This document shows positions 8,447-48,642 of a stretch of 64,000 bases of DNA, in pieces. The notes beneath the pieces were generated by a model. It ran no database searches and had not been told where the DNA came from. It saw only the letters and a program-made list of their open reading frames with translations. Positions within the stretch are counted from its first letter, which is position 1; every line of letters starts with the position of its first letter. This stretch comes from Cycloclasticus sp. (GTDB lineage Bacteria; Pseudomonadota; Gammaproteobacteria; Methylococcales; Cycloclasticaceae): NCBI GenBank assembly GCA_012959695.1, contig DUCS01000006.1, forward strand, positions 96,705 through 160,704, given 5' to 3'. The position numbers and the translations under genes are program-made.

Positions 8447-10422
8447 TTAAACGAATCCTAATAGCGAATCGTGGTGAAATTGCCTGCCGCATTGCCCGAA
8501 CCTGCCAAAAACTCGGTATAGAGGCCGTCGCTGTTTATTCAGAGGCCGATAAGAATAGCCGCCACGTTAGAGAAATTGGTCACGCGATTAAACTGGGTGG
8601 TGCCTTAGCATCAGACAGTTATTTAGATATTAATAAAGTGATTACTGCTGCAAAACAAACCGCCTGCGATGCCATCCACCCCGGCTATGGTTTTCTATCT
8701 GAAAACCCAGATTTTGCTGATGCGATAGAAGCCGCTGGTTTGATATTTATTGGCCCGCGCGCCGATAGTTTACGGCGCTTTGGTGATAAATCTGCTGCTA
8801 AAAAAGAAGCCACAAACGCCAATGTTAATGTCATACCGGGCAGTGAAGGAAAACTATCAGACCCAGCGAAAATTGCCGAGTGTGTTAAAAGCATGGCCTT
8901 ACCTGTGATGTTAAAAGCGGCCGCAGGTGGCGGTGGTAAAGGCATGCGCGTGTTGAATAATTTGGACAATTTAGAAGCTGATATAGAATCGGCCATGAGT
9001 GAAGGGTTGCGCGCGTTCTCCGACGATGCTTTATTAGTAGAACAATGTATTAATAACGCACGCCATGTCGAGGTGCAAATAGCCGGTGATGGTGAAGGTA
9101 ATGTTGTGCATTTGTTTGAAAGGGAATGCTCTTTGCAGCGGCGCCATCAAAAAGTGGTGGAAGAAGCCCCTGCTGTTTTCCTAAATGCATCGCTACGCGA
9201 ATCGTTGTTGTCAGCCGCGTGTCGTTTAGGTGAACAAATACAATACCGGGGTTTAGGCACAGTAGAATTTTTGGTGCTAGGCGAGGAGTATTATTTCTTA
9301 GAAGTAAACCCGCGCTTACAAGTTGAGCACCCCGTAACAGAAAGCATAACGGGGCTTGATTTAGTCGAATTACAAATTAGTATTGCAAACGGTAATGGCT
9401 TTGGTTTTGCACAAAGTGACGTAACATCGAATGGGCATGCCATTGAAGTACGCTTATATGCAGAGTCACCGGCACAAAATTTTATGCCCTCTACCGGCAC
9501 AATAGACACGATTGTCTTCCCAAAACACCTACGCGTTGAAACAGGTGTGGACAGCGGTGATGATGTGTCATCTTACTACGACCCGATGATGGCTAAATTG
9601 ATTGCCACAGGCGCAACACGCAATCAGGCATTAGAACGTTTACAGCAAGGGTTAACCGACACAGCCGTGTTGGGTCTGGATAACAATCGTCACTTCTTAC
9701 AAGCGTTGCTGGCGAATGCCGATGTGCAGGCGGATACCATTGATACGGGGACGTTAGATCGTTGGCTGCCAGATTATGCTGAAACAATAGATGAGGCGTT
9801 AGCCGACAGGCAGGCTGCGATAGCCGCTGCACTATGGATGCGTCAATACCGTGAAGTGGGCAGCAAAAACCCTTGGAAACGCACAGAAGTATTTAGCCAA
9901 TGGGCACTCAGTTCACTGGTGGATACACCCATACACACCGTGGTGCTAAAGCACACTGAGGCAGAGTGGAATATTGCCTTTTTAAGTGTCGATGGCGAAA
10001 GCCAGGTCTCTCTTAATGTGAATGATAAACCCTATCAGGTAGCTTTAAAGGCCGTAGGTAATAGCGCCTATCTTGCGCAGTTTGATGACCTTCGTTTGCC
10101 GATAACGGCCGTTGCCCATAAAGAGGTGATTTATACGCAATCATTGTCGCAGCAAATAACGTTTGAAGTTAACCCTGTGGTGAGCGATAAACTCGGCGAG
10201 TCAGAAGGGCATAACAATATTGTCGCGCCGATGATGGGTGAAATTATTAAAGTACACGTTAAAGAAGGTGACGAAGTGGAAGCAGGGCAACTACTGATTG
10301 TTATGGAATCGATGAAGATGCAGTTACAAATTGAAGCCATTGACGCCGGTACAGTGACTAATATTTATTGTAAAGCAGGGTACAACGTTGCCCGTGGTGC
10401 GGTGGTCGTCGATGTCGAATAG
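8443..10422 (+). CDS. Acyl-CoA carboxylase, biotin carboxylase/BCCP (alpha) subunit
   Basis: RILIANRGEIACRI, GGGGKGMRV, FLEVNPRLQVEHPVTE, C-terminal biotin site MESMKM. Confidence 0.93.
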   Translation: MIKRILIANRGEIACRIARTCQKLGIEAVAVYSEADKNSRHVREIGHAIKLGGALASDSYLDINKVITAAKQTACDAIHPGYGFLSENPDFADAIEAAGLIFIGPRADSLRRFGDKSAAKKEATNANVNVIPGSEGKLSDPAKIAECVKSMALPVMLKAAAGGGGKGMRVLNNLDNLEADIESAMSEGLRAFSDDALLVEQCINNARHVEVQIAGDGEGNVVHLFERECSLQRRHQKVVEEAPAVFLNASLRESLLSAACRLGEQIQYRGLGTVEFLVLGEEYYFLEVNPRLQVEHPVTESITGLDLVELQISIANGNGFGFAQSDVTSNGHAIEVRLYAESPAQNFMPSTGTIDTIVFPKHLRVETGVDSGDDVSSYYDPMMAKLIATGATRNQALERLQQGLTDTAVLGLDNNRHFLQALLANADVQADTIDTGTLDRWLPDYAETIDEALADRQAAIAAALWMRQYREVGSKNPWKRTEVFSQWALSSLVDTPIHTVVLKHTEAEWNIAFLSVDGESQVSLNVNDKPYQVALKAVGNSAYLAQFDDLRLPITAVAHKEVIYTQSLSQQITFEVNPVVSDKLGESEGHNNIVAPMMGEIIKVHVKEGDEVEAGQLLIVMESMKMQLQIEAIDAGTVTNIYCKAGYNVARGAVVVDVE

Positions 10423-12752: not shown

Positions 12753-14756
12753 TTATTCTGTCTCAACAAATGTAATTAACGTCGCGTCCGCTTCAACAAA
12801 ATCTTCAGCCGCATAAAATACTTGGTCAATTTCACCGTCAAACGGTGCTACCAATGTATGCTCCATTTTCATCGCTTCAAGAATGGCAAGTGGTTGGTTT
12901 TCTGTCACACTATCGCCGTTAGCTACGAGTACTTTCAGTAATTTACCTGGCATGGGTGCGACGATGGTTGATGCACCTGCAACGTCAGTGATATCAGCTT
13001 CAAATGGGTTTACTTCGTTTAACAGATACCAACGGTTTTTCCATGAAATTAGAACGATATTGTCATGTCTAAGGGTAATGAATTTTTCCCAGCTATTGTC
13101 TATTTGTAAACGTAACACCTGATTGGTTGATTCTTCAGCGATAACGTCCATATCGGCGTCTAAATGGAACACAAAATGGTTTTCACGTTCGCTTACAACA
13201 ACTTCTATATCATCGCCGTCTTCATAGTTGAAGAATAAGCTGCGCTCACTTTGACCGTTTGGTCGCCAGCCAGTGGTGTCGTGCCATGGGGAATTAGGGT
13301 CGCTTGAAACAACAGCCCCATCAGCAACGGTTTTTTGTTGATCGAGCAATAATCTAACGCTGGCTGCTAATAAAACGTGCTGGGGTAATTCAACGCGGCT
13401 GCTATCGAGTATCGCGTCTAGTTTTGCATCGATGTACTGTGTATCAATTTTATTGTCGATAAAATCAGGGTGAGTCGATAATGTTTCTAAAAATGCAATA
13501 TTGTTTTCCACGCCGATAATGCCTGAGTCGCCGAGTGCGGTCAGTAAGCGTGAACGTGCGATTTCGCGTGTTTCGCCCCATACAACGAGCTTTGCAATCA
13601 TTGGATCGTAGAACACGCTAATGGTGTCGCCTTGTTCAACGCCGGTTTCTACTCGGCAGTTTTCGTTGGCTTGTGGGAAACGCAAAGCATGTAATTTGCC
13701 GGTTGACGGTAGGAATAAATTATTAGGGTTTTCAGCGTATAGGCGTGTTTCAAACGAATGCCCAGTGCTGGTAATTTGTTCTTGCTTTAACGGTAAGGCT
13801 TCACCCGCAGCAACACGTACTTGCCATTCAACTAGATCTTGCCCAGTGACCATTTCGGTAACGGGGTGCTCCACCTGTAATCGCGTATTCATCTCCATAA
13901 AATAAAATGAACGGTCTTCGCCGACAATAAATTCAATGGTGCCTGCACCGTTATATTCAATAGCACGCGCAGCGTTTACGGCAGCGATGCCCATTGCTTC
14001 ACGCGTGGCATCATCAAGGAAAGGAGAAGGGGTTTCTTCAATAATTTTTTGATGGCGACGCTGTAATGAACATTCGCGTTCATGCAGGTGTACGTAATTG
14101 TCGTGAGTGTCTCCAAATACTTGAAATTCAATATGACGTGGTTTGCCAATGTAACGTTCGAGTAACACACGGTCATCACCAAAAGCATTTTGTGCTTCGC
14201 GCATCACCGCATCTAACATGTCATTAAATTCATCAGCCGAATTAACCACGCGCATACCTTTGCCGCCACCGCCAGAAACCGCTTTAATCAATAGTGGATA
14301 GCCTACCTTGTCAGCTTCTGCTTTAAGATGAACAGCGCCTTGCTCTTTGCCGTGATAACCTGGTACGACAGGTACATTAGCAGCTTCCATTAGATGTTTG
14401 GCGGCATCTTTTGCGCCCATTTTTTCAATGGAGTCGGCTGTTGGGCCAATAAAGGTAATGCCAGCGGCAGGGCAAGCACGTGCAAAGCCACTGTTCTCAG
14501 ATAAAAATCCGTATGCTGGGTGAATGGCATCTACTCCCACACGCTTTGCCAGTGCGATGAGGTTATCACCTAGAAGGTATGATTCATCGGGACGTGAGCC
14601 ACCAATATGGTATGCCTCATCAGCCAATTTAACGTGACGCGCATGTTGGTCAGCATCCGAATAAACCGCAACACTGGTGATGCCCATTTTTTTTAAGGTG
14701 GAAATAACACGGCAAGCGATTTCACCGCGATTTGCTATTAATACTTTTTTAAACAT
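12753..14756 (-). CDS. liuD: Methylcrotonyl-CoA carboxylase-like biotin-containing alpha subunit
   Basis: KVLIANRGEIACRV, GGGGKGMRV, MNTRLQVEHPVTE, ILEAMKMEH biotinylation site; in a Liu-like operon. Confidence 0.82.
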   Translation of the reverse strand: MFKKVLIANRGEIACRVISTLKKMGITSVAVYSDADQHARHVKLADEAYHIGGSRPDESYLLGDNLIALAKRVGVDAIHPAYGFLSENSGFARACPAAGITFIGPTADSIEKMGAKDAAKHLMEAANVPVVPGYHGKEQGAVHLKAEADKVGYPLLIKAVSGGGGKGMRVVNSADEFNDMLDAVMREAQNAFGDDRVLLERYIGKPRHIEFQVFGDTHDNYVHLHERECSLQRRHQKIIEETPSPFLDDATREAMGIAAVNAARAIEYNGAGTIEFIVGEDRSFYFMEMNTRLQVEHPVTEMVTGQDLVEWQVRVAAGEALPLKQEQITSTGHSFETRLYAENPNNLFLPSTGKLHALRFPQANENCRVETGVEQGDTISVFYDPMIAKLVVWGETREIARSRLLTALGDSGIIGVENNIAFLETLSTHPDFIDNKIDTQYIDAKLDAILDSSRVELPQHVLLAASVRLLLDQQKTVADGAVVSSDPNSPWHDTTGWRPNGQSERSLFFNYEDGDDIEVVVSERENHFVFHLDADMDVIAEESTNQVLRLQIDNSWEKFITLRHDNIVLISWKNRWYLLNEVNPFEADITDVAGASTIVAPMPGKLLKVLVANGDSVTENQPLAILEAMKMEHTLVAPFDGEIDQVFYAAEDFVEADATLITFVETE

Positions 14757-14773
14757 GATTAATTACCTGTAGG

Positions 14774-16381
14774 CTACATTCTAAAGACGCCGTAAGAGGC
14801 ATCATCAATGGGTGTTTTAGCGGCAACGGCTAGGGATAAACCCAATACGCGACGGGTATCTCTCGGGTCAATAATGCCATCATCCCACAGTCGAGCGGTG
14901 GCAAAATACGGGTTACCTTGTTCCTCGAACTGGTCGAAAATTGGTTTTCTAAATGCTTCTTCTTCGTCTTCTGACCAGGTTTCACCACGTAGTTCAATAG
15001 CGTCACGCTTGACCGTAGCAAGTACAGCGGCGGCTTGCTCGCCACCCATGGTTGAAATACGTGAATTCGGCCATGTCCACAACATACGTGCGCCAAATGC
15101 TCGACCACACATGCCATAGTTACCAGCACCATAGGAACCACCAATTAGCACGGTGAATTTAGGGACGGTAGAACAAGAAACGGCTGTGACCATTTTTGCG
15201 CCATTTTTGGCGATACCTTCCTCTTCGTATTTTTTACCGACCATAAAGCCCGTGATATTTTGTAGAAATAATAAAGGAATACCACGTTGGTTACACAGTT
15301 CAATAAAGTGTGTGCCTTTTAACGCAGAAGGTGAGAACAAGATGCCATTGTTAGCAATAATACCAACCGGATAGCCGTGAATATGAGCAAAGCCACAAAC
15401 CAGAGTTGGGCCATATAATGGCTTGAATTCTTGGAACTCAGAGCCATCCACTAAACGTGCAATAATTTCGCGTACTTCAAACGGTTGGCGCGCATCCTTA
15501 GGGATTACACCTATAATGTCGTCCGTTGGGTATAAAGGTTCACGAGACTCACGTACTTTTGTATGTACTGTTTTATTAACATTTAAGTGGCTGATGATAT
15601 CGCGTGCAATATTCAGCGCATGCGTGTCATTTTCGGCGATATGGTCTGTCACACCCGATTGTTTACAGTGTAGTTCAGCACCACCTAAGTCTTCAGATGA
15701 TACAACTTCGCCTGTGGCGGCTTTAACTAACGGCGGGCCGCCTAAAAATATAGTGCCTTGTTCGCGAACAATAATAGATTCATCACATAGCGCAGGAATA
15801 TATGCTCCACCCGCAGTACACGAACCCATGACCACTGCTATCTGCGAGATACCTGCGCCAGACATGCGTGTTTGGTTATAGAAAAAACGCCCGAAATGCT
15901 CTTTATCTGGGAACACGTCGTGTTGTAGGGGTAGGAAAGCACCACCTGAATCAACTAAATAGATACAAGGTAAGCGATTTTCTTGCGCTATCTCTTGTGC
16001 TCGTAGGTGTTTTTTAACCGTCAATGGATAGTACGTACCCCCTTTAACGGTTGCGTCATTTGCAATCACCATTACTTCGACACCGTGTACACGACCAATG
16101 CCTGTAATAATCCCTGCGGCAGGTGCATCATCGTTATAGATGCCATAGGCTGCTAGTTGTGACAGTTCTAAAAACGAACTACCCTTATCGAGCAACGCTT
16201 TTATGCGGTCTCTAGGTAACAGCTTATCCCTTGCCAAGTGTTTTTTACGCGCTCGCTCACCACCACCTGCGGCGGCTGTTGTGATACGTTCATTCAACTC
16301 AGCGACCAATGTTGCCATAGCAGCTGTGTTGTCTTTAAACTCAGGGGAAGCCGTTTCTAGCTTAGATTTTATAATAGGCAT
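14774..16381 (-). CDS. liuB: Methylcrotonyl-CoA carboxylase-like carboxyltransferase beta subunit
   Basis: Carboxyltransferase motifs ([65 protein letters not shown]). Confidence 0.88.
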
Positions 16382-24130: not shown

Positions 24131-24877
24131 ATGAAAATTTTAGTGGGTGTAAAACGCGTTATTGATTTCAATGTGCGTGTTCAAGTTAAATCGGATGGCT
24201 CAGGCGTCGTTAAAGATGGCGTAAAAATGAGCATGAACCCGTTTGATGAAATAGCGGTTGAAGAAGCGCTAAGAATTAAAGAAGCGGGCAATGCTGAAGA
24301 AGTTATTGTTGCAACGATTGGCCCTAAAGCTTGTCAAGAACAGCTTAGAACGGCCTTAGCTATGGGTGCAGACCGCGCTATTCACGTTCAAACGGATGAA
24401 GAAGTTCAACCTTTAACGGGTGCTCGAATTTTTAAAGCACTGGCTGATAAAGAACAACCAAAAATCATTTTACTGGGTAAGCAAGCCATTGATGATGACA
24501 ATAACCAAACAGCACAAATGCTCGGCGCTTTGTCTCATTGGCCACAAGCTACATTCGCATCAGAGGTTAAAATAGAGGGTGAAACAGCGACTGTCATCCG
24601 CGAAGTAGATGCGGGACTTGAAACACTTTCAGTTGATTTACCTGCTGTTATCAGCGTGGATTTACGTTTGAACGAACCACGTTATGTAAAGCTTCCAGAC
24701 ATAATGAAAGCAAAACGCAAACCACTCGAAACAATGAGCATTGAAGATTTAGGAGTGGAGCATGTAGCCGAAGTGAAAGTGCTAAAGACCGTAGCGCCTG
24801 CTAAAAGACAAGCTGGCATTAAAGTGGACTCTGTGGCAGAACTGGTTACAGCACTTAAAGAAAAGGGGTTAATCTAA
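24131..24877 (+). CDS. etfB: Electron transfer flavoprotein beta subunit
   Basis: [59 protein letters not shown]. Confidence 0.95.
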
Positions 24878-25815
24878 TGAGTAAAGTATTAGTTATTGCT
24901 GAACACGACGGCACAAATTTAAATGGCTCTACAGCCCGAGCAGTCAGCTGCGCTAGCGATTTAGGCTTAGATGCTATTGATGTTGTTGTACTAGCCGCTG
25001 ATGGATCTGCTGTAGCAGAACAAGCTGCAAAAATATCAGGTGTTACTAACGTACTATTAGTACAAAACCCTGCCAATGAAAATGCAGTTGCTGCGTTTCT
25101 TGCGCCGCAAATTGAAGCCTTAGCCGCAGACTACAGTCATGTATTGGCGCCAAGCACGACCTTTGGTAAAGATTTAATGCCACGCGTTGCTGCCCATTTA
25201 GGTCGTCCGCAAATCAGTGACATTATGCGAGTTGAAAGTAGCCATGTGTTTGACCGTCCTGTGTACGCCGGCAATGCCATTGCTACAGTAGAAGCGCCTG
25301 AAGGACTTGTTATTGGAACCGTAAGAACCGCTTCATATAAAGCAGCAGCAAATGAAGGTTCAGCATCTGTAGAAACACGCAGCGTTGAAGTAACACTTCC
25401 TACTCATACGCGGTTTGTGGAATTAGCATCAGGTGGTGGCGGAGATCGTCCAGACTTACAAGCAGCTTCTAAAGTCGTTTCAGGTGGCCGTGGTGTTGGC
25501 AGTGAAGAAAACTTCAAACATATTTATAGTTTAGCTGACAAACTGGGCGCCGGCGTTGGCGCTTCAAGAGCAGCAGTCGACGCTGGGTTTATTCCAAATG
25601 ATCATCAAGTGGGTCAAACTGGAAAAATTATCGCACCGGACTTGTACATGGCTTTTGGTATTTCAGGCGCTATCCAACATTTAGCGGGTATTAAAGATGC
25701 TGGAACCATCGTCGCTATCAATAAAGATGCCGATGCACCGATATTTGAAGTGGCTGATTATGGTTTAGTCGCTGATTTATTTGAAGTGATTGAAGAGCTT
25801 GAAAAAGCACTTTAA
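24877..25815 (+). CDS. etfA: Electron transfer flavoprotein alpha subunit
   Basis: [77 protein letters not shown]. Confidence 0.96.
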
Positions 25816-25893: not shown

Positions 25894-27546
25894 ATGGAAC
25901 GTGAATCTATGGAGTTTGATGTCGTCATCGTTGGCGCTGGCCCTGCAGGGTTATCAGCTGCGTGTAAATTAATGCAATTGGCTCAAGAAACTGAACAAGA
26001 ATTAATGGTTTGCGTTATTGAAAAGGGCTCGGAAGTAGGTGCGCACATTCTATCTGGCGCGGTGCTAGAACCGACCGCCATCAACGAATTATTCCCAGAC
26101 TGGAAAGAGAAGGGCGCACCCATTAATGTAAAAGTTGATGGCGATGATGTTTACTACCTTACTAGCGAAGGAAAAGGCATTAAAACGCCCGGCTTCTTAG
26201 TCCCGAAACCGATGCATAATGAAGGCAATTACATCGTCAGCATGGGCAATGTATGTCGTTGGCTAGCGGAACAAGCGGAAGATATGGGTGTTGAAATTTT
26301 CCCAGGCTTCACCGCGTCAGAAATTCTTTATAACGACGACGGTAGTGTTAAAGGCATCTTAACCGGCGATATGGGTGTAGCCGAAGATGGCAGTGAAAAA
26401 GACGGCTATATGCCTGGCATGGAGCTACTCGCTAAACAAACTATATTCGCTGAAGGTTGCCGTGGCCATCTAGGCAAGCAACTGATGGACAGTTTTGACC
26501 TTAACAAAGACGCTGATCCACAGCACTACGGTTTGGGTATTAAAGAAATTTGGACCATTGACCCTGAAAAACACCAAGAAGGCTTAGTGGTGCATACTGC
26601 AGGTTGGCCTTTAGATAATCATACTGAGGGCGGCGGATTTCTGTATCACATGGAAAATAACCAAGTGTCATTAGGCTTTATTGTTGCGTTGAACTATACA
26701 AATCCGCACTTAAGCCCATTTGATGAAATGCAGCGTTGGAAATCAAATCCAAAAATCAGCCAATTTTTAGAAGATGGCGAACGTGTAGGCTATGGCGCAC
26801 GTGCAGTTAATAAAGGCGGTATGCAATCTGTGCCAAAGCTGAGTTTCCCTGGCGGTTTGCTAGTTGGTTGTGATGCTGGTTTTTTAAATGGTGCAAAAAT
26901 CAAAGGCAACCATACAGCAATGAAAACAGGCATGTTAGCGGCTGAAACTATTATCGAGTCACTAAAGGCTGGTGAGATTGCTAGTAAAGAACTTAGCTTG
27001 ATGGATGAGAAATACAAGTCATCTTGGGTATTTGAAGAATTGCATACAACGCGTAATTTTGGCCCTGCGTTACATAAGTTCGGCACTTTATTAGGCGGTT
27101 CATTTGCTTGGTTAGATCAAAACATTTTTGCCGGCAAACTACCATTTACCTGGCATAACACCACGCCAGACTACGATACACTAAAACCCGCAGCCGAATG
27201 TGAGGTGATTAACTACCCAAAGCCCGACGGCAAATTAACCTTCGACAAGCTATCATCAGTATTTTTATCCAGCACTAACCACGAAGAAGACCAGCCTTGT
27301 CATTTAAAGCTGGCGGATAGCAATATTCCCATTGCTCAAAACTTGCCGCTATACGATGAGCCAGCTCAACGATATTGCCCAGCAGGCGTGTATGAAGTGG
27401 TTAAAGACGATTCAGGTAATGATAAATTTCAAATAAACGGCCAAAACTGCGTGCATTGCAAAACCTGCGACATTAAAGATCCAGCACAAAATATTACTTG
27501 GGTAACACCCGAAGGTGGCGGCGGCCCAAATTATGGAAATATGTAA
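25894..27546 (+). CDS. etfD: Electron transfer flavoprotein-ubiquinone oxidoreductase
   Basis: FAD motif VIVGAGPAGLSAA; HILSGAVLEP; C-terminal 4Fe-4S (CPAGVYE...NCVHCKTCDIKDPAQNITW). Confidence 0.95.
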   Translation: MERESMEFDVVIVGAGPAGLSAACKLMQLAQETEQELMVCVIEKGSEVGAHILSGAVLEPTAINELFPDWKEKGAPINVKVDGDDVYYLTSEGKGIKTPGFLVPKPMHNEGNYIVSMGNVCRWLAEQAEDMGVEIFPGFTASEILYNDDGSVKGILTGDMGVAEDGSEKDGYMPGMELLAKQTIFAEGCRGHLGKQLMDSFDLNKDADPQHYGLGIKEIWTIDPEKHQEGLVVHTAGWPLDNHTEGGGFLYHMENNQVSLGFIVALNYTNPHLSPFDEMQRWKSNPKISQFLEDGERVGYGARAVNKGGMQSVPKLSFPGGLLVGCDAGFLNGAKIKGNHTAMKTGMLAAETIIESLKAGEIASKELSLMDEKYKSSWVFEELHTTRNFGPALHKFGTLLGGSFAWLDQNIFAGKLPFTWHNTTPDYDTLKPAAECEVINYPKPDGKLTFDKLSSVFLSSTNHEEDQPCHLKLADSNIPIAQNLPLYDEPAQRYCPAGVYEVVKDDSGNDKFQINGQNCVHCKTCDIKDPAQNITWVTPEGGGGPNYGNM

Positions 27547-27580
27547 AGCTAATTGATTTTAATCATAAATTAAAGCTTTT

Positions 27581-27643: not shown

Positions 27644-28420
27644 ATGGCTGTTACACAAGATAACATTGTAAAAAACCAAGATATAAAACCTTGGAAATTC
27701 AACCTTAAGCCAATGATAATTTGCATGTTGATCCTAGTGGCTTTGATGGGTACAGCACGCTGGTATCAACAGTGGGCGGCGTGGGACTTTGGTTTGGATG
27801 CAACTGACCCAATGTTCGACGTATATTGGATGAAGCTTTTTTGGGCTCAAATTATTATAGAACCTATCTTATTTGTTATTTTTGTCGGCTATATGTGGCT
27901 AACGAGAGATAAGCACTTAAATGACCTTGCGCCAAGAGAAGAGCTGAACAAACTTATACTGTGGATTTCAATGCTAGTTGTGTATGCATTTGCTTTTTAC
28001 TTTGCTGGCAGTTTGTATGCAGAACAAGATGCTTCATGGCATCAAACAGTTGTAAGAGACACCAGTTTTACACCGAGTCATATTTTCTTGTTTTATGGAA
28101 CGATGCCTATTTTCATTATTATTGGTTTCACGTTATTTTTCTATGCGATTACACGACTTCCATTTTTCGCAAAAGAAATATCAATACCCTTGGTGCTAGT
28201 CGTTTGTGGTCCATTCATGTTGTTACCAACCGTAGGTTATAACGAGTGGGGACATGCGTTTTGGCTAATGGAAGAGTACTTTACTGTACCTCTTCATTGG
28301 GGCTTTGTGTTTTTCGGTTGGTCAATTATTGCTTTAGGTGGAGTCTTGGTACAAGTTATTAAGTACATCATAGATTTGATGCCAAAAGTAATTAATGAAA
28401 AAGGCGAACTACTGTCTTAA
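27644..28420 (+). CDS. pmoC: Copper membrane monooxygenase subunit C (PmoC/AmoC/HmoC-like)
   Basis: AEQDASWHQTVVRDTSFTPSHIFLFYG (conserved D-x3-H...H Cu ligands), LNEWGH-like VGYNEWGHAFWLMEE; GGAGG RBS supports ATG at 27644. Confidence 0.93.
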   Translation: MAVTQDNIVKNQDIKPWKFNLKPMIICMLILVALMGTARWYQQWAAWDFGLDATDPMFDVYWMKLFWAQIIIEPILFVIFVGYMWLTRDKHLNDLAPREELNKLILWISMLVVYAFAFYFAGSLYAEQDASWHQTVVRDTSFTPSHIFLFYGTMPIFIIIGFTLFFYAITRLPFFAKEISIPLVLVVCGPFMLLPTVGYNEWGHAFWLMEEYFTVPLHWGFVFFGWSIIALGGVLVQVIKYIIDLMPKVINEKGELLS

Positions 28421-28431
28421 TAATTGTTTTT

Positions 28432-28468
28432 AAGGGCCTTAACTCATAAGAGTTAAGGCCCTTTTTTT
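28432..28468 (+). terminator. Perfect 14-bp stem hairpin plus T-tract between pmoC and pmoA (intra-operon terminator/attenuator or processing element)
   Basis: AAGGGCCTTAACTC (28432-28445), loop ATAA, GAGTTAAGGCCCTT (28450-28463), run of T to 28468. Confidence 0.9.
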
Positions 28469-28492
28469 ATAAATAATGGAAAAGGTTGAATT

Positions 28493-29305
28493 ATGAGTTT
28501 AGAACAACATGAAGCAAAGCTACTTAGCGCCATTTCAACACCCGGCTCCGACGCCGCTAAAATTGCAAGAGGGCTTGACTGGATTGTAGTTGGTATTTTG
28601 GTCTTCGCAATTATTGCTGCATATCATATTCATATGATGTTAACAGTTGGCGACTGGGATTTTTGGGTGGACTGGAAAGACAGAATGAACTGGGTCACAT
28701 TGACACCCATGCTTCTTGTTGTTATTCCCGCAGCGCTTTCCTATCCATTTATGGAAAAGTTCGGCCTGCCTATTGCCGGAACCTTGTGTGCGCTATGTTT
28801 AATGATTGGTGAGTGGGCGAGTCGTTATTTTAGTTTCCATTTATGGACATACTTCCCAATGAGTATGGTTTGGCCATCTATCGTTATTCCAGGTCTTATG
28901 CTAATGGACATGGTGTATTTGTTATCAAGAAACCTTTTTGTAACATCTATTTTTGGAGGCAGTGCCGTCGCTTTTGCCTTTGCGCCGGCTAACTGGCCAA
29001 TACTAGCGCCTTATCACGTACCTGTTATCCATATGGATCAAGTTGTCAGTGTGGCTGATTTGATTGGTTACACTTTCACCCGTACAGCAACGCCAGAATA
29101 TTTAAGAATGATTGAACGAGGAACCTTAAGAACCTTTGGCGGTGAGTCCACGTTAATTTCAACGTTCTTCTCAGCCTTTGTCTGCATGATTTTGTACTTT
29201 GTATGGTGGAAGATTGGAGAGTGGCTCACAAATATGGGCAGCACGCCCAATGTACTTAAAAAATACGTGGGCTATAGCGATGATGTTGAAAAGGAGAAGC
29301 AGTAA
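28493..29305 (+). CDS. pmoA: Copper membrane monooxygenase subunit A (PmoA/AmoA/HmoA-like)
   Basis: VGDWDFWVDWKDRMNWVTLTPM signature and multiple TM segments. Confidence 0.95.
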   Translation: MSLEQHEAKLLSAISTPGSDAAKIARGLDWIVVGILVFAIIAAYHIHMMLTVGDWDFWVDWKDRMNWVTLTPMLLVVIPAALSYPFMEKFGLPIAGTLCALCLMIGEWASRYFSFHLWTYFPMSMVWPSIVIPGLMLMDMVYLLSRNLFVTSIFGGSAVAFAFAPANWPILAPYHVPVIHMDQVVSVADLIGYTFTRTATPEYLRMIERGTLRTFGGESTLISTFFSAFVCMILYFVWWKIGEWLTNMGSTPNVLKKYVGYSDDVEKEKQ

Positions 29306-30556
29306 ATGAATGTCACTACTGTATTTAAAAAAACTGTACTCATGCTTATGTTGCTGATAGTTTCAACAGTCATTTATGCGCATGGCGAGAGAAATCAAGA
29401 ACCATTTTTAAGGATGAAAACCTTGCAATGGTACGATGTTAAATGGTCTGTTAAAAATGAAGCAACCATCAAGGTAAACGATGAGCTGATACTTGAAGGT
29501 AAGGTGCACTTTTTCTCAAGGTGGCCGCAAGTAATCAATAAACCAGATACCATATTCTTAGCCAATGCTACCCCAGGGCCAGTTTTTATAAGAGAAGAAA
29601 GTTACATGAATGAAGTCCCTATGATTCAGTCAACAGGTGTCGAAGTCGGCGAAGTATATGATTTCAGGGTAAAGCTAAAAGCTCGAATACCAGGACGACA
29701 CCATGTGCACCCTATGATTAATGTAGAGTCAGCCGGTGGTTTAGTTGGACCTGGTATTTGGGTGAATGTTGAAGGGGACGCTGATGATTTTGTTTACAGC
29801 GTTGAAACTAGAACTGGCCAAACTATCGAAAACCTTGGTACCTACGCAACAGGTAATGTGTATAAATGGCATGCTATTTGGGCTGCTATTGCAGCATTTT
29901 GGCTTATCTGGTGGATAAGGCGTCCTTTGTTAATACAAAGATATTTACTGGTTAAAGATGGCCAATGGGGAAAATTAATCACTCTGACAGATAAGAAAAT
30001 GGGTGCTACTTTAATGGTCGTTATTATCGGTCTGTTAATTTACGCCAATAGTATTACCAGAGAAGCTTATGAATACACCATTCCCTTACAAGGGGGTAGA
30101 GCTGTAGTTGATGTGGTGCCAAATTCAGATAAGGGTTTAATTACCGTAAAAAACAAAAGGGCTGAATATTATTTACCCGGTAGAACAGTAACTATTGATG
30201 CTGAAATTACTAATAATCATAATTTACCAATACGGATAGGCGAATTTACATCAGCGAATTTACGGTTTATTAATAAAGCATTGCCGTATGCTGTTGCAGG
30301 TCTTGATGAAGGTTATCCAGAAGAGCTCGTTGCAGGTGCATCTCTAGGTATTGATGATGATACCTCAATAATGCCAGGTGAAACAAAGCGTGTGCTTATC
30401 GATGCTACTGATGTTGCATGGGAGATAGAACGCCTTAGCAGCCTTCTTAATGATCCTGATAGTAGTTATGGCGGCCTACTGTTTTTCTATGATAGTAATG
30501 GTAAGAGAATTATCAAAGAGGTATATGGGCAAATACTGCCTACCTTTAAAAAGTAA
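29306..30556 (+). CDS. pmoB: Copper membrane monooxygenase subunit B (PmoB/AmoB/HmoB-like)
   Basis: Signal peptide then HGERNQEPF (mature N-terminal His), HHVHPMINVESAGGLVGPGIW copper-site motif. Confidence 0.95.
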   Translation: MNVTTVFKKTVLMLMLLIVSTVIYAHGERNQEPFLRMKTLQWYDVKWSVKNEATIKVNDELILEGKVHFFSRWPQVINKPDTIFLANATPGPVFIREESYMNEVPMIQSTGVEVGEVYDFRVKLKARIPGRHHVHPMINVESAGGLVGPGIWVNVEGDADDFVYSVETRTGQTIENLGTYATGNVYKWHAIWAAIAAFWLIWWIRRPLLIQRYLLVKDGQWGKLITLTDKKMGATLMVVIIGLLIYANSITREAYEYTIPLQGGRAVVDVVPNSDKGLITVKNKRAEYYLPGRTVTIDAEITNNHNLPIRIGEFTSANLRFINKALPYAVAGLDEGYPEELVAGASLGIDDDTSIMPGETKRVLIDATDVAWEIERLSSLLNDPDSSYGGLLFFYDSNGKRIIKEVYGQILPTFKK

Positions 30557-30578
30557 ACCTTACGAGTTGTAAAAAGTA

Positions 30579-31139
30579 ATGAAAAGACAAGGCAGACTTT
30601 CTATATTGTTGTTTGCCTTGTTTTTTTATGCCCCAAGCATATACGCGCATGGTGGCCTTACTATTGACCAAGATAAGTGTGTCTTTCGCGTAGCCCGAAC
30701 AGTTGTTCACTTCACGGCATACCAGCCTGAGGTGTCTCAAGAAGAAGAGTTGTGTAAAGATATTCCTGCAGGAAATAATACGATTTTCGTTGTTGATTTT
30801 GTTGGCGAGAAATTACGAAAAAAACCAATTCAACTGTCTGTAGAACAAAAAACTAATAATCGATATGAAAGTTATTTGTCTAAAGTATCTCAGATATATC
30901 CCTCTGGAACGACTAATTTAAACTTACCTAATCTAGGTTCAGGTGAATATCGCATTTCATTGTTATTTAACGGCCCTGATGACGCTAGTGCACACACAGA
31001 GGGGTATTTCTACATAACGGTTACAGCGAGTAATAAAGAAGACAGTATGCTTGGTTTGTTTGATAAATACTCATGGCTGCTAATCCTCGCATCAATTGGT
31101 TTCGTCGCATATTTATTATCCGCAAGACTTAAGTCTTAA
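30579..31139 (+). CDS. Secreted, C-terminally membrane-anchored protein of the CuMMO operon with predicted mature N-terminal His
   Basis: Signal peptide ending ...SIYA-HGGLTIDQDKC, C-terminal TM helix (WLLILASIGFVAYLL), 22 bp after pmoB. Confidence 0.7.
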   Translation: MKRQGRLSILLFALFFYAPSIYAHGGLTIDQDKCVFRVARTVVHFTAYQPEVSQEEELCKDIPAGNNTIFVVDFVGEKLRKKPIQLSVEQKTNNRYESYLSKVSQIYPSGTTNLNLPNLGSGEYRISLLFNGPDDASAHTEGYFYITVTASNKEDSMLGLFDKYSWLLILASIGFVAYLLSARLKS

Positions 31140-31251: not shown

Positions 31252-31372
31252 AATTTAGCTGTTTGGGTCAGATAAAGCGTCTTTATTTTTCACCACTTCA
31301 CGGAGTGATTGTTAAAAACAAGTTGTTATTTGATTAGATAGCGGATTGCACGCTAATGGAGTTCATATTTAA

Positions 31373-31576
31373 TTACTTTTCATCTCGCGCCTTTCTTTTA
31401 GAAGCATCTGATATAGCTAGTCCATATTTTGTTTCTTGTTCACGGCCTGGTTCTTCTGTTTTCTTTTCAACCGCACGGGCTTGTGCTCTCAGAGGGTTTT
31501 CCGGCACATCGCAGCCAGCAAGGACAATTAGGAGTAGTGAAGTAATTAGAATTGCGAGACTATTTTTATAGTCCAT
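31373..31576 (-). CDS. Small lipoprotein
   Basis: Hydrophobic leader with lipobox LIVLAGC. Confidence 0.55.
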   Translation of the reverse strand: MDYKNSLAILITSLLLIVLAGCDVPENPLRAQARAVEKKTEEPGREQETKYGLAISDASKRKARDEK

Positions 31577-31934
31577 TGTTATTTTATTTAATCTTAATTC
31601 GTAATTTTAAAACGTAACGCGGATTTAAACAAACTAATATTCAAAATCCAGTAATTGTTTAAAGCGAGCGCATTTTCCTTTGCGGAAAATTTGCCCATAG
31701 AATCTGAAGAGTACATGCTGTAAGCCTTAGCCTACCGCGACGAACTCAATATTCTACTTCGTATAATGTATATTATGTTAAATAGAATAGCTAAGTAGGA
31801 AGCAATTAAAACAAATTGTTGTTATGGAGTGAAGATGAGCCGAATTACGATAGGTGGTAATGGAAAGAATATAAGTGATAACTTAGATTATAAAAGATAA
31901 GTAACTTATTGATTAATTGAGAAATAAAAAGTAA

Positions 31935-43878: not shown

Positions 43879-44652
43879 CTACATGTTCTCTCGTATCTCA
43901 GCCTCACCTGCAAGCCTAGATAGTCCAATTAGCCTCAATATGACTTGAGCGCCTAATCCGCCAATCGCTAAAGCAGACCAACCGAGCACCACAAAGCCCC
44001 AATGTAAGGGTGCAGTGAACAACTCTTCCATAAACCAAAAGGTATGCCCCCATTCGTTTAAGCCAACATTGGGCAGTATCATAAAAGGACCAACAATAAG
44101 GATAACGAAGGGAATAGAAATATTATCGGCAAACTGTGGCAAACGTGTACGGGCATATAAAAAAGAAGAAACACCCGCAATAATATAAGCCGGAAAAGTC
44201 CCATAAAATAGTACGATATGGCTGGGTGTAAAATCGGTATCACGCACGGTTACTTGGTGCCATGATGCATCTTGCTCTGCAAAAAAACTGGCTGCCCAGT
44301 AGACGATCCAAGTGTAGCTTAATAGCCATAAAAACAAAGTGAAATAACGCCTTAGTTCTTCCGCTGGCGATATATTAAAAACATTTTTATCTCTAGTTTT
44401 TAACAAATAGCTCCAAATTGTGGACGCTAAGATAAACTCAATAATCCACTGGGCATAAAGAAGGTTCATCCAATAGGTTTGAAACTCAGGCTCAAAAGAA
44501 TCCATGCCCATATCCCAAGCATACACTTGTTGGTAAACCCTCCAAGCAACCATTACGCACAGGATCCCTAAAATAATAAAAATAACGGCTTTAACGTTAA
44601 TTAAGTTCTTTGTTGGGTCGCTGGATAATTCGGTTATTTCTGTCGATGGCAT
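43879..44652 (-). CDS. pmoC: Orphan second copper membrane monooxygenase subunit C (PmoC/AmoC-like)
   Basis: AEQDASWHQVTVRDTDFTPSHIVLFYG, VGLNEWGHTFWFMEELFTAPLHWGFVVLGW; no pmoA/pmoB adjacent. Confidence 0.93.
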   Translation of the reverse strand: MPSTEITELSSDPTKNLINVKAVIFIILGILCVMVAWRVYQQVYAWDMGMDSFEPEFQTYWMNLLYAQWIIEFILASTIWSYLLKTRDKNVFNISPAEELRRYFTLFLWLLSYTWIVYWAASFFAEQDASWHQVTVRDTDFTPSHIVLFYGTFPAYIIAGVSSFLYARTRLPQFADNISIPFVILIVGPFMILPNVGLNEWGHTFWFMEELFTAPLHWGFVVLGWSALAIGGLGAQVILRLIGLSRLAGEAEIRENM

Positions 44653-44701
44653 AGCCCCAAATTAACACCTAACAGGCGTTTAAACAAATGGTGTGAACAC
44701 T

Positions 44702-45271
44702 TTATGTTTGGATAGAAACAAGTGATACGAACTCCGCATCAATATCTGTGTCGATATACGCCATTCCAAGCTTATTTAAATACTCTATACGATTAGCCTT
44801 CATTAAATCGATGTCTAGCACACCAGCACTACCCTCTTGATAAATCTTAGCGAGATAATCCATGTACAACTCCCCTTCCGTTACCATTAGCAACGTAGCA
44901 GCACCCACATCAGGTTGTACATTAACGTTCAGCTCTTTGGGTAATTTAACAGCAAAAACGACAGGAGTTTCCTCACCTTCAATACGAACACCTCGTTCCC
45001 TAACTGTTTGTTCTGCCCAAAAGTAAGCTAGCTGTTTACTTTGTGTTAAAAAAACGGGTTCTATGGATTCTGTATAGCTGTTACCAATTGTTGCCATTGT
45101 GCCTTTTGCTGCTTGCTTCATGGCTGTATCACCCGAGCGTTTTAGACCATGTGTTTCGATAGAACTAACTAAGGCGGAAGATGTGCCGTGATACCAAACA
45201 TCACTTGTTGCAAAGCCGTCTTTAGTTAGCAAGTTTTTTGCATCTTGTAAGTAGTTTGGAATATTGCTCAT
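44702..45271 (-). CDS. Hypothetical protein with ADP-ribosyltransferase-like (ART/KptA/PARP-type) fold signature
   Basis: VWYHGTSSALVSSIETHGLKRS, then PVFLTQSKQLAYFWAEQ; pattern resembles the ART-fold HG[TS] start and 'ylt...A..yA' strand. Confidence 0.45.
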   Translation of the reverse strand: MSNIPNYLQDAKNLLTKDGFATSDVWYHGTSSALVSSIETHGLKRSGDTAMKQAAKGTMATIGNSYTESIEPVFLTQSKQLAYFWAEQTVRERGVRIEGEETPVVFAVKLPKELNVNVQPDVGAATLLMVTEGELYMDYLAKIYQEGSAGVLDIDLMKANRIEYLNKLGMAYIDTDIDAEFVSLVSIQT

Positions 45272-45338
45272 TATTTATTCACCTTGGGTCATGATGTAAG
45301 CATTTGGTTACAATTGAATATTTTAAACTTAGCTAAAT

Positions 45339-45374
45339 AAAAAGGCGACTTTCAATTAAGAAAGTCGCCTTTTT
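45339..45374. terminator. Bidirectional rho-independent terminator
   Basis: AAAAAGGCGACTTTC-AATTAA-GAAAGTCGCCTTTTT perfect 15-bp stem. Confidence 0.9.
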
Positions 45375-45422
45375 AAATACAACAAGCTTTTAGAAAAAAA
45401 AGCTTAACTAGCCTGCCTCAGA

Positions 45423-47021
45423 TTACGAGAACTGATTAGATGTATTTTTAGCACCACCGGCTTTAAGCGCGTTTTCACCAGCAAAGTATTCTTTGTGGTC
45501 ATCGCCCATGTCTGAACCAGACATGTTTTGATGTTTTACACAGGCAATACCTTGACGGATTTCTTTACGCTGTACGCCAGCAACATAACCCAACATACCT
45601 TGCTCACCGAAGTAGTCTTTAGCTAGGTTGTCTGTAGACAATGCAGCTGTATGGTAAGTCGGTAAAGTAATCAAGTGATGGAAGATGTTCGCTTCACGAG
45701 CAGAATCAGCTTGGAATGTGCGGATTTTTTCATCAGCAGCATGAGCCAAATCAGTTTCATCGTATTCAGCACTCATTAAACCATCACGGTCGTATGCAGA
45801 AACGTCTTCACCTGCTTCAGCCATCGCGTCGAAGGCTTGTTGACGGAAGTTAAGCGTCCAGTTGAATGATGGGCTGTTGTTGTAAACGAGTTTCGCATCA
45901 GGAATTTCTTTACGTACTTCGTTCATCATATTAGCAATGTCTTTAACGCTTGGTGTTGCTGTTTCAATCCAAAGAAGATCAGCACCCGCTTTAATTGCTT
46001 CGATAGAATCGAATACGCAACGCTCTTCGCCTGTGCCTTGACGGAACTGGTAAAGACCAGAAGGTAAACGCTTAGGACGAACCAATTTGCCATCACGGTT
46101 GAAGCATACATCGCCTTCAGCCATGTCTGCTACGTCGATTTCTTCAACATCTAGGAAAGAGTTGTAACGATCGCCTTGATCGCCTGGCTCTTTAACAACG
46201 GCAATTTCTTTCGTAAGGCCAGCGCCTTCAGAGTCAGTACGTGACACGATAATACCGTTGTCGATACCTAGTTCTAAGAAGGCGTGACGCAATGCGCGAA
46301 TTTTAGAATGGAAGTCAGCATGAGGTACGGTTACTTTGCCGTCTTGGTGACCACATTGTTTTTCATCAGCTACTTGGTTTTCGATTTGAAGTGCACATGC
46401 ACCCGCTTCGATCATTTGCTTAGCCATGATGTAAGTCGCTTCTGCATTACCAAAGCCCGCATCAATATCTGCAACGATAGGCACAACGTGAGTTACGTGG
46501 TTGTCAATAGCATCTTGTACGCGTTTTGCTGCAACATCATCGCCAGCTTCACGAGCAGCGTCTAAGTCACGGAACAAGCCGCCTAGTTCACGAGCATCTG
46601 CTTGACGTAGGAATGTGTATAACTCTTCAACCAAGCTAGCAACGGTAGTTTTTTCATGCATTGATTGGTCAGGTAAAGGACCAAAGTCTGAGCGTAGTGC
46701 AGCAACCATCCAACCAGAAAGGTACAGGTAGCGACGATCAGTTTTTCCACCAAAATGTTTCTTAATAGAAATCATTTTTTGTTGGCCGATAAAACCATGC
46801 CAGCAACCTAAAGACTGTGTGTACTGAGATTTGTCTGCATCAAATGCAGCCATGTCAGCGTTCATGATATCAGCTGTGTATTGAGCTACATCAAGGCCAG
46901 TTTTGAATTTGTTTTGCGCGCGCATACGTGCAATTGATTCAGGGTTAATTGGAGCCCAAGAATCGCCTTTGGCTTCTACCAATGCTGAAACAGCATTTAT
47001 ATCATTTATATAAGATGACAT
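45423..47021 (-). CDS. aceA: Isocitrate lyase (long ~530-aa form)
   Basis: KKHFGGKTDRRYLYLSGWMVAA, VVPIVADIDAGFGNAEATYIMAKQMIEAGACALQIENQVADEKQCGHQDGKVTVPH. Confidence 0.96.
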   Translation of the reverse strand: MSSYINDINAVSALVEAKGDSWAPINPESIARMRAQNKFKTGLDVAQYTADIMNADMAAFDADKSQYTQSLGCWHGFIGQQKMISIKKHFGGKTDRRYLYLSGWMVAALRSDFGPLPDQSMHEKTTVASLVEELYTFLRQADARELGGLFRDLDAAREAGDDVAAKRVQDAIDNHVTHVVPIVADIDAGFGNAEATYIMAKQMIEAGACALQIENQVADEKQCGHQDGKVTVPHADFHSKIRALRHAFLELGIDNGIIVSRTDSEGAGLTKEIAVVKEPGDQGDRYNSFLDVEEIDVADMAEGDVCFNRDGKLVRPKRLPSGLYQFRQGTGEERCVFDSIEAIKAGADLLWIETATPSVKDIANMMNEVRKEIPDAKLVYNNSPSFNWTLNFRQQAFDAMAEAGEDVSAYDRDGLMSAEYDETDLAHAADEKIRTFQADSAREANIFHHLITLPTYHTAALSTDNLAKDYFGEQGMLGYVAGVQRKEIRQGIACVKHQNMSGSDMGDDHKEYFAGENALKAGGAKNTSNQFS

Positions 47022-47058
47022 TTATTATCTCCTTTTTTAAGTTAACGTTAAATTTAAA

Positions 47059-48642
47059 TTACAAGTAGTCGTAAGCTGGTACGGTTAAGAAATCAACCAG
47101 CTCTTCGGATGTTGTGAAACGATCCATGATTTTTGCCGCTTCATCAAAACGACCGGCGTTAAAGCGTTCTTCGCCCACTTCGCCTTTAATCGTTTCCATT
47201 TCTTCGTTCATCAATTCACGAAACAGTTCAACGGTGACTTTTTTGCCGTTGCTCAAGTCTTTACCGTGGTGAATCCACTGCCAGATTGATGAACGGGAAA
47301 TTTCAGCGGTTGCTGCATCTTCCATCAAGCCATAAATAGGTACACAGCCGTTGCCTTGAATCCACGCTTCAATATATTGAACCGCAATACGTAAGTTAGC
47401 GCGCATGCCCTCTTCTGTTCTGTCGCCTTCACAAGGTTCTAGTAATTCAGCAGCCGTCACGTCAGCATCATCCGCACGCGATACGCTCATTTGGTTGGCA
47501 TTACCTTCGCCGATGTATTCATCAAGCACAGCCATTGCTGTATCAGCCAAGCCTGGGTGAGCCACCCATGTGCCATCGTGGCCATTTTGCGCTTCTAATG
47601 TTTTATCACCCACTACGCGCTTTAATACAGCCGCGTTAGCTTCAGGATCTTTAGCAGGAATAAAGGCAGCCATGCCGCCCATCGCCAATGCACCACGTTT
47701 GTGACACGTTTTAATCAATAAGCGAGAATAAGCACTTAAGAAAGGCTTGTTCATGGTGACCGCTTGGCGATCTGGAAGCACACGATCAGGGAAATTTTTA
47801 AGTGTTTTAATATAACTGAAGATGTAATCCCAACGGCCACAGTTTAGAGCCACGATATGGTCACGAAATTCATGCAGAATTTCGTCCATTTCAAATACCG
47901 CCGGCAATGTTTCAATAAGCACTGTTGCTTTAACTGTGCCGCGCTCTAATCCAACTAAATCTTCAGCAGTATCCATCACGTCAGCCCACCAGCGTGCTTC
48001 TTTATGAGATTGCAGTTTAGGAATGTAGAAGTATGGAGCAGACCCTTTTGCGGTTAATGCTTTGTAGTTATGGAAGAAGTAATAGCCAAAATCAATCAGG
48101 CCACCTGGGATTTCTTGGTCATATAAATGGATGTGTTTTTCAGGCAAATGCAAACCACGTGCGCGGCAGATAAGCACAGCAGGATCTTCATTTAATTCGT
48201 AATGCTTACCCGATTTTGGGTCGTCTAGGCTAATCGTGCCATTAACCGCATCACGCATGTTTATTTGGCCTTGAGCCACCTTCTCCCATGTAGGAGACAG
48301 TGAATCTTCAAAGTCAGCCATAAACACTTTAACGTTAGCATTTAGCGCGTTAATGATCATCTTACGGTCAACAGGGCCAGTAATTTCAACGCGTCTGTCT
48401 TGTAGGTCGTCAGGCACGCCAAGAATAGACCAGCCGCCTTCACGTATTGCTTTGGTTTCAGGTAAAAAATCAGGTAATGCGCCCGCGTCAATTTCTGCCT
48501 GTCTTTCTTTACGTGCATCTAATAATGCGTGTACATGTGGAGCAAACTCTTCAGCCAGTGTTGCTACGAAGTTATTCGCTTCTGCTGTATAAATGCTGGC
48601 GTATTCAGGTGTCATTTCACCTTTAAATGTTAATTCTTTCAC
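47059..48642 (-). CDS. aceB: Malate synthase A
   Basis: MADFEDSLSPTWEKVAQGQINMRDAV, LIETLPAVFEMDEILHEFRDHIVALNCGRWDYIFSYIKT. Confidence 0.97.
   Translation of the reverse strand: MKELTFKGEMTPEYASIYTAEANNFVATLAEEFAPHVHALLDARKERQAEIDAGALPDFLPETKAIREGGWSILGVPDDLQDRRVEITGPVDRKMIINALNANVKVFMADFEDSLSPTWEKVAQGQINMRDAVNGTISLDDPKSGKHYELNEDPAVLICRARGLHLPEKHIHLYDQEIPGGLIDFGYYFFHNYKALTAKGSAPYFYIPKLQSHKEARWWADVMDTAEDLVGLERGTVKATVLIETLPAVFEMDEILHEFRDHIVALNCGRWDYIFSYIKTLKNFPDRVLPDRQAVTMNKPFLSAYSRLLIKTCHKRGALAMGGMAAFIPAKDPEANAAVLKRVVGDKTLEAQNGHDGTWVAHPGLADTAMAVLDEYIGEGNANQMSVSRADDADVTAAELLEPCEGDRTEEGMRANLRIAVQYIEAWIQGNGCVPIYGLMEDAATAEISRSSIWQWIHHGKDLSNGKKVTVELFRELMNEEMETIKGEVGEERFNAGRFDEAAKIMDRFTTSEELVDFLTVPAYDYL

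Follow-up and report, generated by a model that had tools for sequence, protein, structure and literature searches.

Genes and features of the locus

The window considered here (the whole stretch that was analysed, 64 kb of contig DUCS01000006.1) contains in full a copper membrane monooxygenase (CuMMO) operon from a species of the marine, oil-degrading genus Cycloclasticus: pmoC-A-B-D, the operon of a type-2 particulate hydrocarbon monooxygenase (pHMO). The sequence comes from a metagenome-assembled genome (MAG; 80% complete, 44 contigs) labelled G000, where C plus a number denotes a contig and the window lies on C6. The operon is read on the forward strand: pmoC (gamma subunit, 27644-28420; PF04896 (AmoC), E=2.1e-86), pmoA (beta subunit, 28493-29305; PF02461 (AMO), E=1.3e-90), pmoB (alpha subunit, 29306-30556; PF04744 (Monooxygenase_B), E=9.7e-132) and a pmoD-like gene (30579-31139). 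An initial annotation, made from the sequence, had described a complete pmoC-A-B operon at these coordinates, as the Pfam matches confirm, and its pmoC start at 27644 is preferable to that of the open reading frame (ORF) list (27632): a GGAGG lies shortly upstream and the start agrees with relatives (MAVTQ...). The copper motifs that it had noted are borne out by alignment to solved chains of Methylococcus particulate methane monooxygenase (pMMO), the residue numbers of whose copper sites we take to be as generally quoted. In PmoB, which has a signal peptide and a mature N-terminal His, H26, H133 and H135 are the counterparts of H33, H137 and H139; in PmoC, D-x3-H-x12-H corresponds to D156, H160 and H173 and N-x3-H-x13-H to N227, H231 and H245, the CuC and CuD ligand positions being kept relative to 1yew chain C; and PmoA contains GDWDFW. 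With three subunits in the order C, A, B (Pfam E<=1e-86) and the PmoB and PmoC copper ligands, the enzyme has the features that define a CuMMO.

Shortly upstream of pmoC, on the same strand, lie the genes (Pfam assignments) of an electron transfer flavoprotein (etfB, 24131-24877; etfA, 24877-25815) and of its quinone oxidoreductase (ETF:QO, 25894-27546); the initial annotation had correctly placed the operon directly downstream of them. Between ETF:QO and pmoC there is a palindrome, TGATTTTAATCA (27554-27565; TGAT-N4-ATCA, FNR/CRP-like), which starts 8 bp past the ETF:QO stop. On the other side, at 31756-31783 (forward strand), is the chromosome-dimer resolution site dif, ACTTCGTATAATGTATATTATGTTAAAT, which matches the E. 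coli-type dif at 24/28 positions (the next best site in the window reaches 18). The dif core is a single zero-mismatch copy in most genomes possessing it and the single best site in most Cycloclasticus genomes, and near the window dif the GC skew, positive before, falls to about zero or below. Between pmoD and dif there is a putative lipoprotein ORF of ~68 aa (31369-31575, reverse strand).

Native and present positions of the operon

Seven further Cycloclasticus genomes carry the type-2 operon (G004, G005, G006, G007, G008, G012 and G013), and those records with the same operon that bear a name are Cycloclasticus. Flanks were inspected to ~9 kb on each side, loci L019 and L024 being short contigs that end near the operon. 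Most relatives share one arrangement, taken here as the native site: a DEAD helicase, a YlqF-like gene and a phasin-like gene, then pmoD-B-A-C, then NhaD, mobB, moeA and galE. The NhaD-mobB-moeA-galE group adjoins the operon in G004, G005, G007 and G012, and the DEAD-box helicase and YlqF-like genes lie on the opposite side in G004, G005, G006 and G012; the phasin-like gene is the sole shared feature on the helicase side in G007, and in G013, where the contig is short, the NhaD side is visible. G008 carries the operon at another location, with two tandem pmoC genes.

The corresponding site in G000 has no operon. Contig C26 ends within the phasin-like gene, and C25 opens with its 5' portion, immediately after which come a second pmoD-like gene and NhaD; in relatives, pmoD-pmoB-pmoA-pmoC stand between the flanking genes. 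The two contig ends share the same insertion sequence (IS) terminus; once it is removed by script, an 8-bp target duplication, AAGAAAAA, remains and the phasin-like reading frame is whole again (...SYIQTKEKLMKIIEK...). This terminus occurs in 11 exact copies in G000, several of them at contig ends (0 in a reversed control), and a 707-bp copy of the IS on C4 encodes what by eye is an IS1595-type transposase. The second pmoD-like gene is found at the native site, besides G000, only in G007 and G012, and its having been left there argues for loss of the operon from the site and not for primitive absence. The native site in G000 is thus empty, and the operon has probably left it. No remnant of the phasin-like gene was found by tblastn downstream of pmoD in the window.

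The position now occupied can also be compared with relatives. ETF:QO adjoins dif in G012, and the FKBP gene adjoins dif in G002 and G016; since both adjacencies recur, the interval is natural at a replication terminus, and only the ~4.2 kb with pmoCABD is new. Across the stretch from pmoD to FKBP, the one significant match among the loci compared was 20 bases long and proved to be dif. The TGAT-N4-ATCA palindrome, which bounds the moved segment on the left, stands 84-90 bp upstream of pmoC in 4/7 type-2 loci (the window, L022, L023 and L024), with only 3 matches across the 64-kb window; its being kept upstream of pmoC implies that the operon moved with its own upstream element. The relocated operon is probably transcribed on its own, and the palindrome may have a regulatory role. 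In G012, a P2-type viral coat protein (PF18628, PF25513) of a PM2-like virus is encoded beside dif, downstream of ETF:QO (L031:1439-2251).

These comparisons point to relocation: pmoCABD and the upstream palindrome would have moved from the native site into the ETF:QO-dif interval in this species. We regard this account as a whole, in which the type-2 pHMO operon has moved beside dif and its linkage to etf is incidental, as probable.

Linkage to the etf genes

The initial annotation had singled out the linkage of the operon to etf and beta-oxidation genes as the notable part of the locus, and had read the neighbourhood as a functional cluster, evidence for a pathway from alkanes to acyl-CoA. 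ETF:QO, etfBA and the acyl-CoA genes are indeed co-directional, pmoC is only ~97 bp away, and such a pathway is in general plausible for Cycloclasticus (PMC12510462). As a conserved linkage, however, the cluster is refuted: etf genes are beside the type-2 operon in none of the other Cycloclasticus loci inspected. ETF:QO occurs in 10/10 good genomes, including G014 and G017, which are free of pHMO, and in other Cycloclasticus it lies away from pHMO genes; what follows it there is the P2-coat virus (G012), a CRISPR-Cas-like gene set identified by eye (G010), or tetR and others (G007, G014). Further points against a functional cluster are that the operon has been relocated in this genome alone, that the interval borders dif, and that the nearby acyl-CoA genes include two biotin-dependent carboxylase pairs that n-alkane oxidation does not need. 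A functional cluster is therefore unlikely. Because the operon was relocated into the ETF:QO-dif interval and the linkage is not conserved in relatives, the linkage is in all likelihood a positional accident that came with insertion where replication ends; the place of the operon at dif is a one-off and tells nothing about the substrate.

Mode of the proposed movement, and the assembly

Several points weigh against relocation. First, the gap between ETF:QO and pmoC contains no second dif-like attachment site: the best left arm scores 14/22 while shuffles commonly give 13-14, and Xer integration was rejected as the route. Second, the MAG is incomplete, so what is missing from G000 alone carries little weight, and there may be a second copy. 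Third, the relocation junction is known from one assembly only. Movement by the IS1595-like element was also considered, and is unsupported: 0 copies of its end lie on C6. Integrative mobile elements exploiting Xer (IMEX) provide the closest comparison, as they too place accessory DNA next to dif, where the PM2-like virus of G012 also lies; the pmo operon differs from such insertions in having dif on the right flank only, with no second dif-like site and no flanking integrase or phage gene seen.

Given an assembly in 44 contigs and a junction seen in no other genome compared, C6 could be a chimera in which the operon was wrongly joined to ETF:QO and dif. Yet the outer adjacencies are natural ones, as G012 shows for ETF:QO-dif and G002 and G016 for FKBP-dif, and the upstream palindrome is at its usual distance from pmoC. 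The native site, moreover, is continuous without the operon except for the IS with its clean 8-bp duplication, and the operon must therefore sit elsewhere. Gene identities to the left and right of the junction were compared with each relative; the relatives differ gene by gene, so this comparison speaks neither for nor against a chimera. A chimeric contig is in our view quite improbable, and relocation is retained as the account of the locus.

Enzyme class

In the PmoA tree, the window sequence falls inside a clade made up of Cycloclasticus only (support 100/99). The neighbour of this type-2 clade is one uncultured proteobacterial sequence, and both lie inside a 30-row group (99/98) that contains no methanotroph PmoA, Pxm or ammonia monooxygenase (AMO) row. 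Methanotroph PmoA (24 rows, 100/99), Pxm (100/100) and AMO (100/100, anchored via PDB 9pxf) form separate clades. Approximately unbiased (AU) tests rejected the grouping of type 2 with methanotroph PmoA (p=0.00067) and with AMO (p=0.029). The initial annotation had proposed this phylogeny as a check, with placement inside a methanotroph or nitrifier clade as the outcome that would overturn its view; the window PmoA lies outside both. One result is less favourable: a single clade of type 2 and the actinobacterial hydrocarbon monooxygenase (HMO) was not recovered, and was not rejected either (AU p=0.17). As the initial annotation had also said, the family is not new, being already known in Cycloclasticus, where it is ordinary. 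It is reportedly present in Cycloclasticus symbionts of mussels and sponges as well, according to work by Rubin-Blum and colleagues from 2017.

Three known systems are relevant. The pMMO of Methylococcales (PDB 1yew, 3rgb) shares the protein family, the gene order C-A-B and the copper ligands, but differs in its separate clade, at ~47% PmoA identity, and the window host lacks the formaldehyde-activating enzyme Fae. The plasmid-borne HMO of actinobacteria (Mycolicibacterium chubuense NBB4, Rhodococcus, Mycobacterium dioxanotrophicus) is likewise a non-methanotroph CuMMO in C-A-B order, but its PmoA is 38% identical to that of the window and sits on a very long branch. The pHMO of free-living Cycloclasticus that use short-chain alkanes (PMC12510462) shares the genus, the subunits, the occurrence of several divergent copies per genome, the partners (pyrroloquinoline quinone alcohol dehydrogenase (PQQ-ADH), aldehyde oxidoreductase (AOR) and methylcitrate genes) and the lack of a methanotroph C1 marker; the difference is that in the window species the type-2 copy is relocated next to dif and ETF:QO. 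G000 itself holds two PmoA types, type 2 in the window and a type-1 operon at G000:C12, and other species also have a type 3; the published Cycloclasticus pHMO clades are termed unknown, group X and group-X-like (PMC12510462).

The host does not look like a methylotroph. Fae was found in 0/11 Cycloclasticus genomes tested and in 3/3 methanotroph controls; it was also found in several sister-clade MAGs (G062-G066, G069) and in G070. Because the PmoA is neither methanotroph PmoA nor AMO and the host is non-methylotrophic, the enzyme is most likely a short-chain hydrocarbon monooxygenase, with a substrate range predicted from sequence. Of the earlier proposal of short-chain alkane oxidation, the call of a hydrocarbon monooxygenase thus stands, on phylogeny and the lack of Fae, and the use of the neighbourhood as evidence for substrate falls. 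That the enzyme instead oxidises methane or ammonia, its host being an unrecognised methanotroph or nitrifier, is most improbable: proteins of the operon do score above the cutoffs of NCBIfam AmoA_BACT and AmoB_BACT, though the Prokaryotic Genome Annotation Pipeline (PGAP) gives these names to a Pxm-type protein as well, and the idea is contradicted by the tree, by the AU tests and by a heterotrophic genus without Fae.

Host metabolism

Better metabolic evidence than the etf neighbourhood comes from elsewhere in the genome. A PQQ-ADH is encoded on a separate contig, G000:C5 (TIGR03075, E=6e-237, a model whose matches cover methanol- and other-alcohol-type enzymes together), next to an acyl-CoA synthetase, a methylisocitrate-lyase-like protein, a citrate-synthase-family protein and an aconitase-like ORF, which taken together may be read as a methylcitrate cluster. 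G000 also has two tungsten-type AORs, and the window encodes isocitrate lyase and malate synthase. AOR is present in 18/18 genomes; since AOR and isocitrate lyase are found in pHMO-free species too, they are permissive and not diagnostic. Proteomics of Cycloclasticus on n-pentane detected pHMO subunits, and the pathway proposed for pentane-grown cells matches the PQQ-ADH, AOR, methylcitrate and glyoxylate gene set of G000 (PMC12510462).

The pHMO would most likely hydroxylate short-chain n-alkanes (~C2-C5) at the copper site in PmoC/PmoB. The alcohol could then be oxidised by the PQQ-ADH encoded elsewhere in the genome, the aldehyde converted to the acid by the tungsten AOR, and the acids passed to beta-oxidation and to the methylcitrate and glyoxylate routes. 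The two biotin-dependent acyl-CoA carboxylase pairs of the window, which are accompanied by acyl-CoA dehydrogenases and thiolases, lie at 6836-10422 (forward strand) and 12753-16381 (reverse strand); both clusters presumably resemble those of leucine/isovalerate or terpenoid catabolism.

PmoD homologue and pmoC-pmoA hairpin

Four features in or near its range had been passed over by the initial annotation: the pmoD homologue, a hairpin between pmoC and pmoA, dif, and an orphan pmoC2. The product of the pmoD-like gene has no match in Pfam or NCBIfam; phmmer matches it to PDB 6cpd PmoD (E=4.6e-4). It has a signal peptide, a periplasmic domain with two conserved Cys and a C-terminal transmembrane helix, and a homologue follows pmoB in most related loci. 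The signal peptide, the two Cys, the motif His, the C-terminal helix and the adjacency to pmoCAB are shared with PmoD/AmoD (PDB 6cpd, PMC6189053), but Val replaces the Met ligand of the CuA motif, so that Cx7MxHxnC reads Cx7VxHxnC. As CuA formation is restricted to proteins with Cx7MxHxnC (PMC6189053), no CuA site is predicted in the window PmoD, which probably lacks that centre.

A sequence scan of the pmoC-pmoA gap found a strong terminator/attenuator-like hairpin (28432-28463, forward strand) with a perfect 14-bp stem and a T run. Hairpins occur in this gap in all type-2 (7/7) and type-1 (3/3) loci folded; their sequences are unrelated, which implies that structure is conserved more than sequence. 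The hairpin resembles the known control of pmoC/amoC over-expression.

Other pmoC-like genes

The orphan pmoC2 (43879-44652, reverse strand) scores above the AmoC_BACT cutoff, has intact copper ligands and is 70-76% identical to the PmoC of the type-1 pHMO operon. The order aceB-aceA-orf44-pmoC2 with a divergent LysR gene (window 43879-48642, reverse strand; L041, L044, L045) is kept in G000, G006 and G010, and pmoC2 is also beside aceA in G009, whose contig begins inside aceA. Isocitrate lyase is present in most genomes, including those without pmoC2, and orf44 has no Pfam or NCBIfam family. AmoC-like membrane proteins that are short, divergent and encoded on their own form two further families (PF04896 E ~1e-14 to 1e-17; L046:9215-9907, L047:9164-9625 in G000, L048 and L049), in which the D-x3-H motif is only partly kept and the remaining ligands are missing; a PF04896 search found none in the pHMO-free genomes G001, G003, G014 and G017, of which G001 and G003 are incomplete. 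Type-1 operons without pmoC ahead of pmoA were seen at L013, L014, L042 and L043 (G015, G016), with pmoC on another contig in both genomes and, in G015, a transposase-like ORF ahead of pmoA.

Implications

Speculatively, Cycloclasticus pHMO operons may be semi-mobile modules (at the native site, dif and other loci) that keep their promoter element, with the position of the oxygenase and its replication dosage under selection, and pmoC2 beside aceB-aceA might supply extra PmoC when C2-forming alkanes induce the glyoxylate shunt; we think this scheme unlikely. The enzyme itself adds one more instance of a known alkane oxygenase of importance at oil and gas seeps. The locus is above all a caution, in that a striking gene neighbourhood loses its evidential value when sister species are compared that carry the same operon. 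If the relocation proposed here is correct, it offers a clean case of a CuMMO operon changing position, in which the vacated donor site can be seen as well as the acceptor site beside dif.

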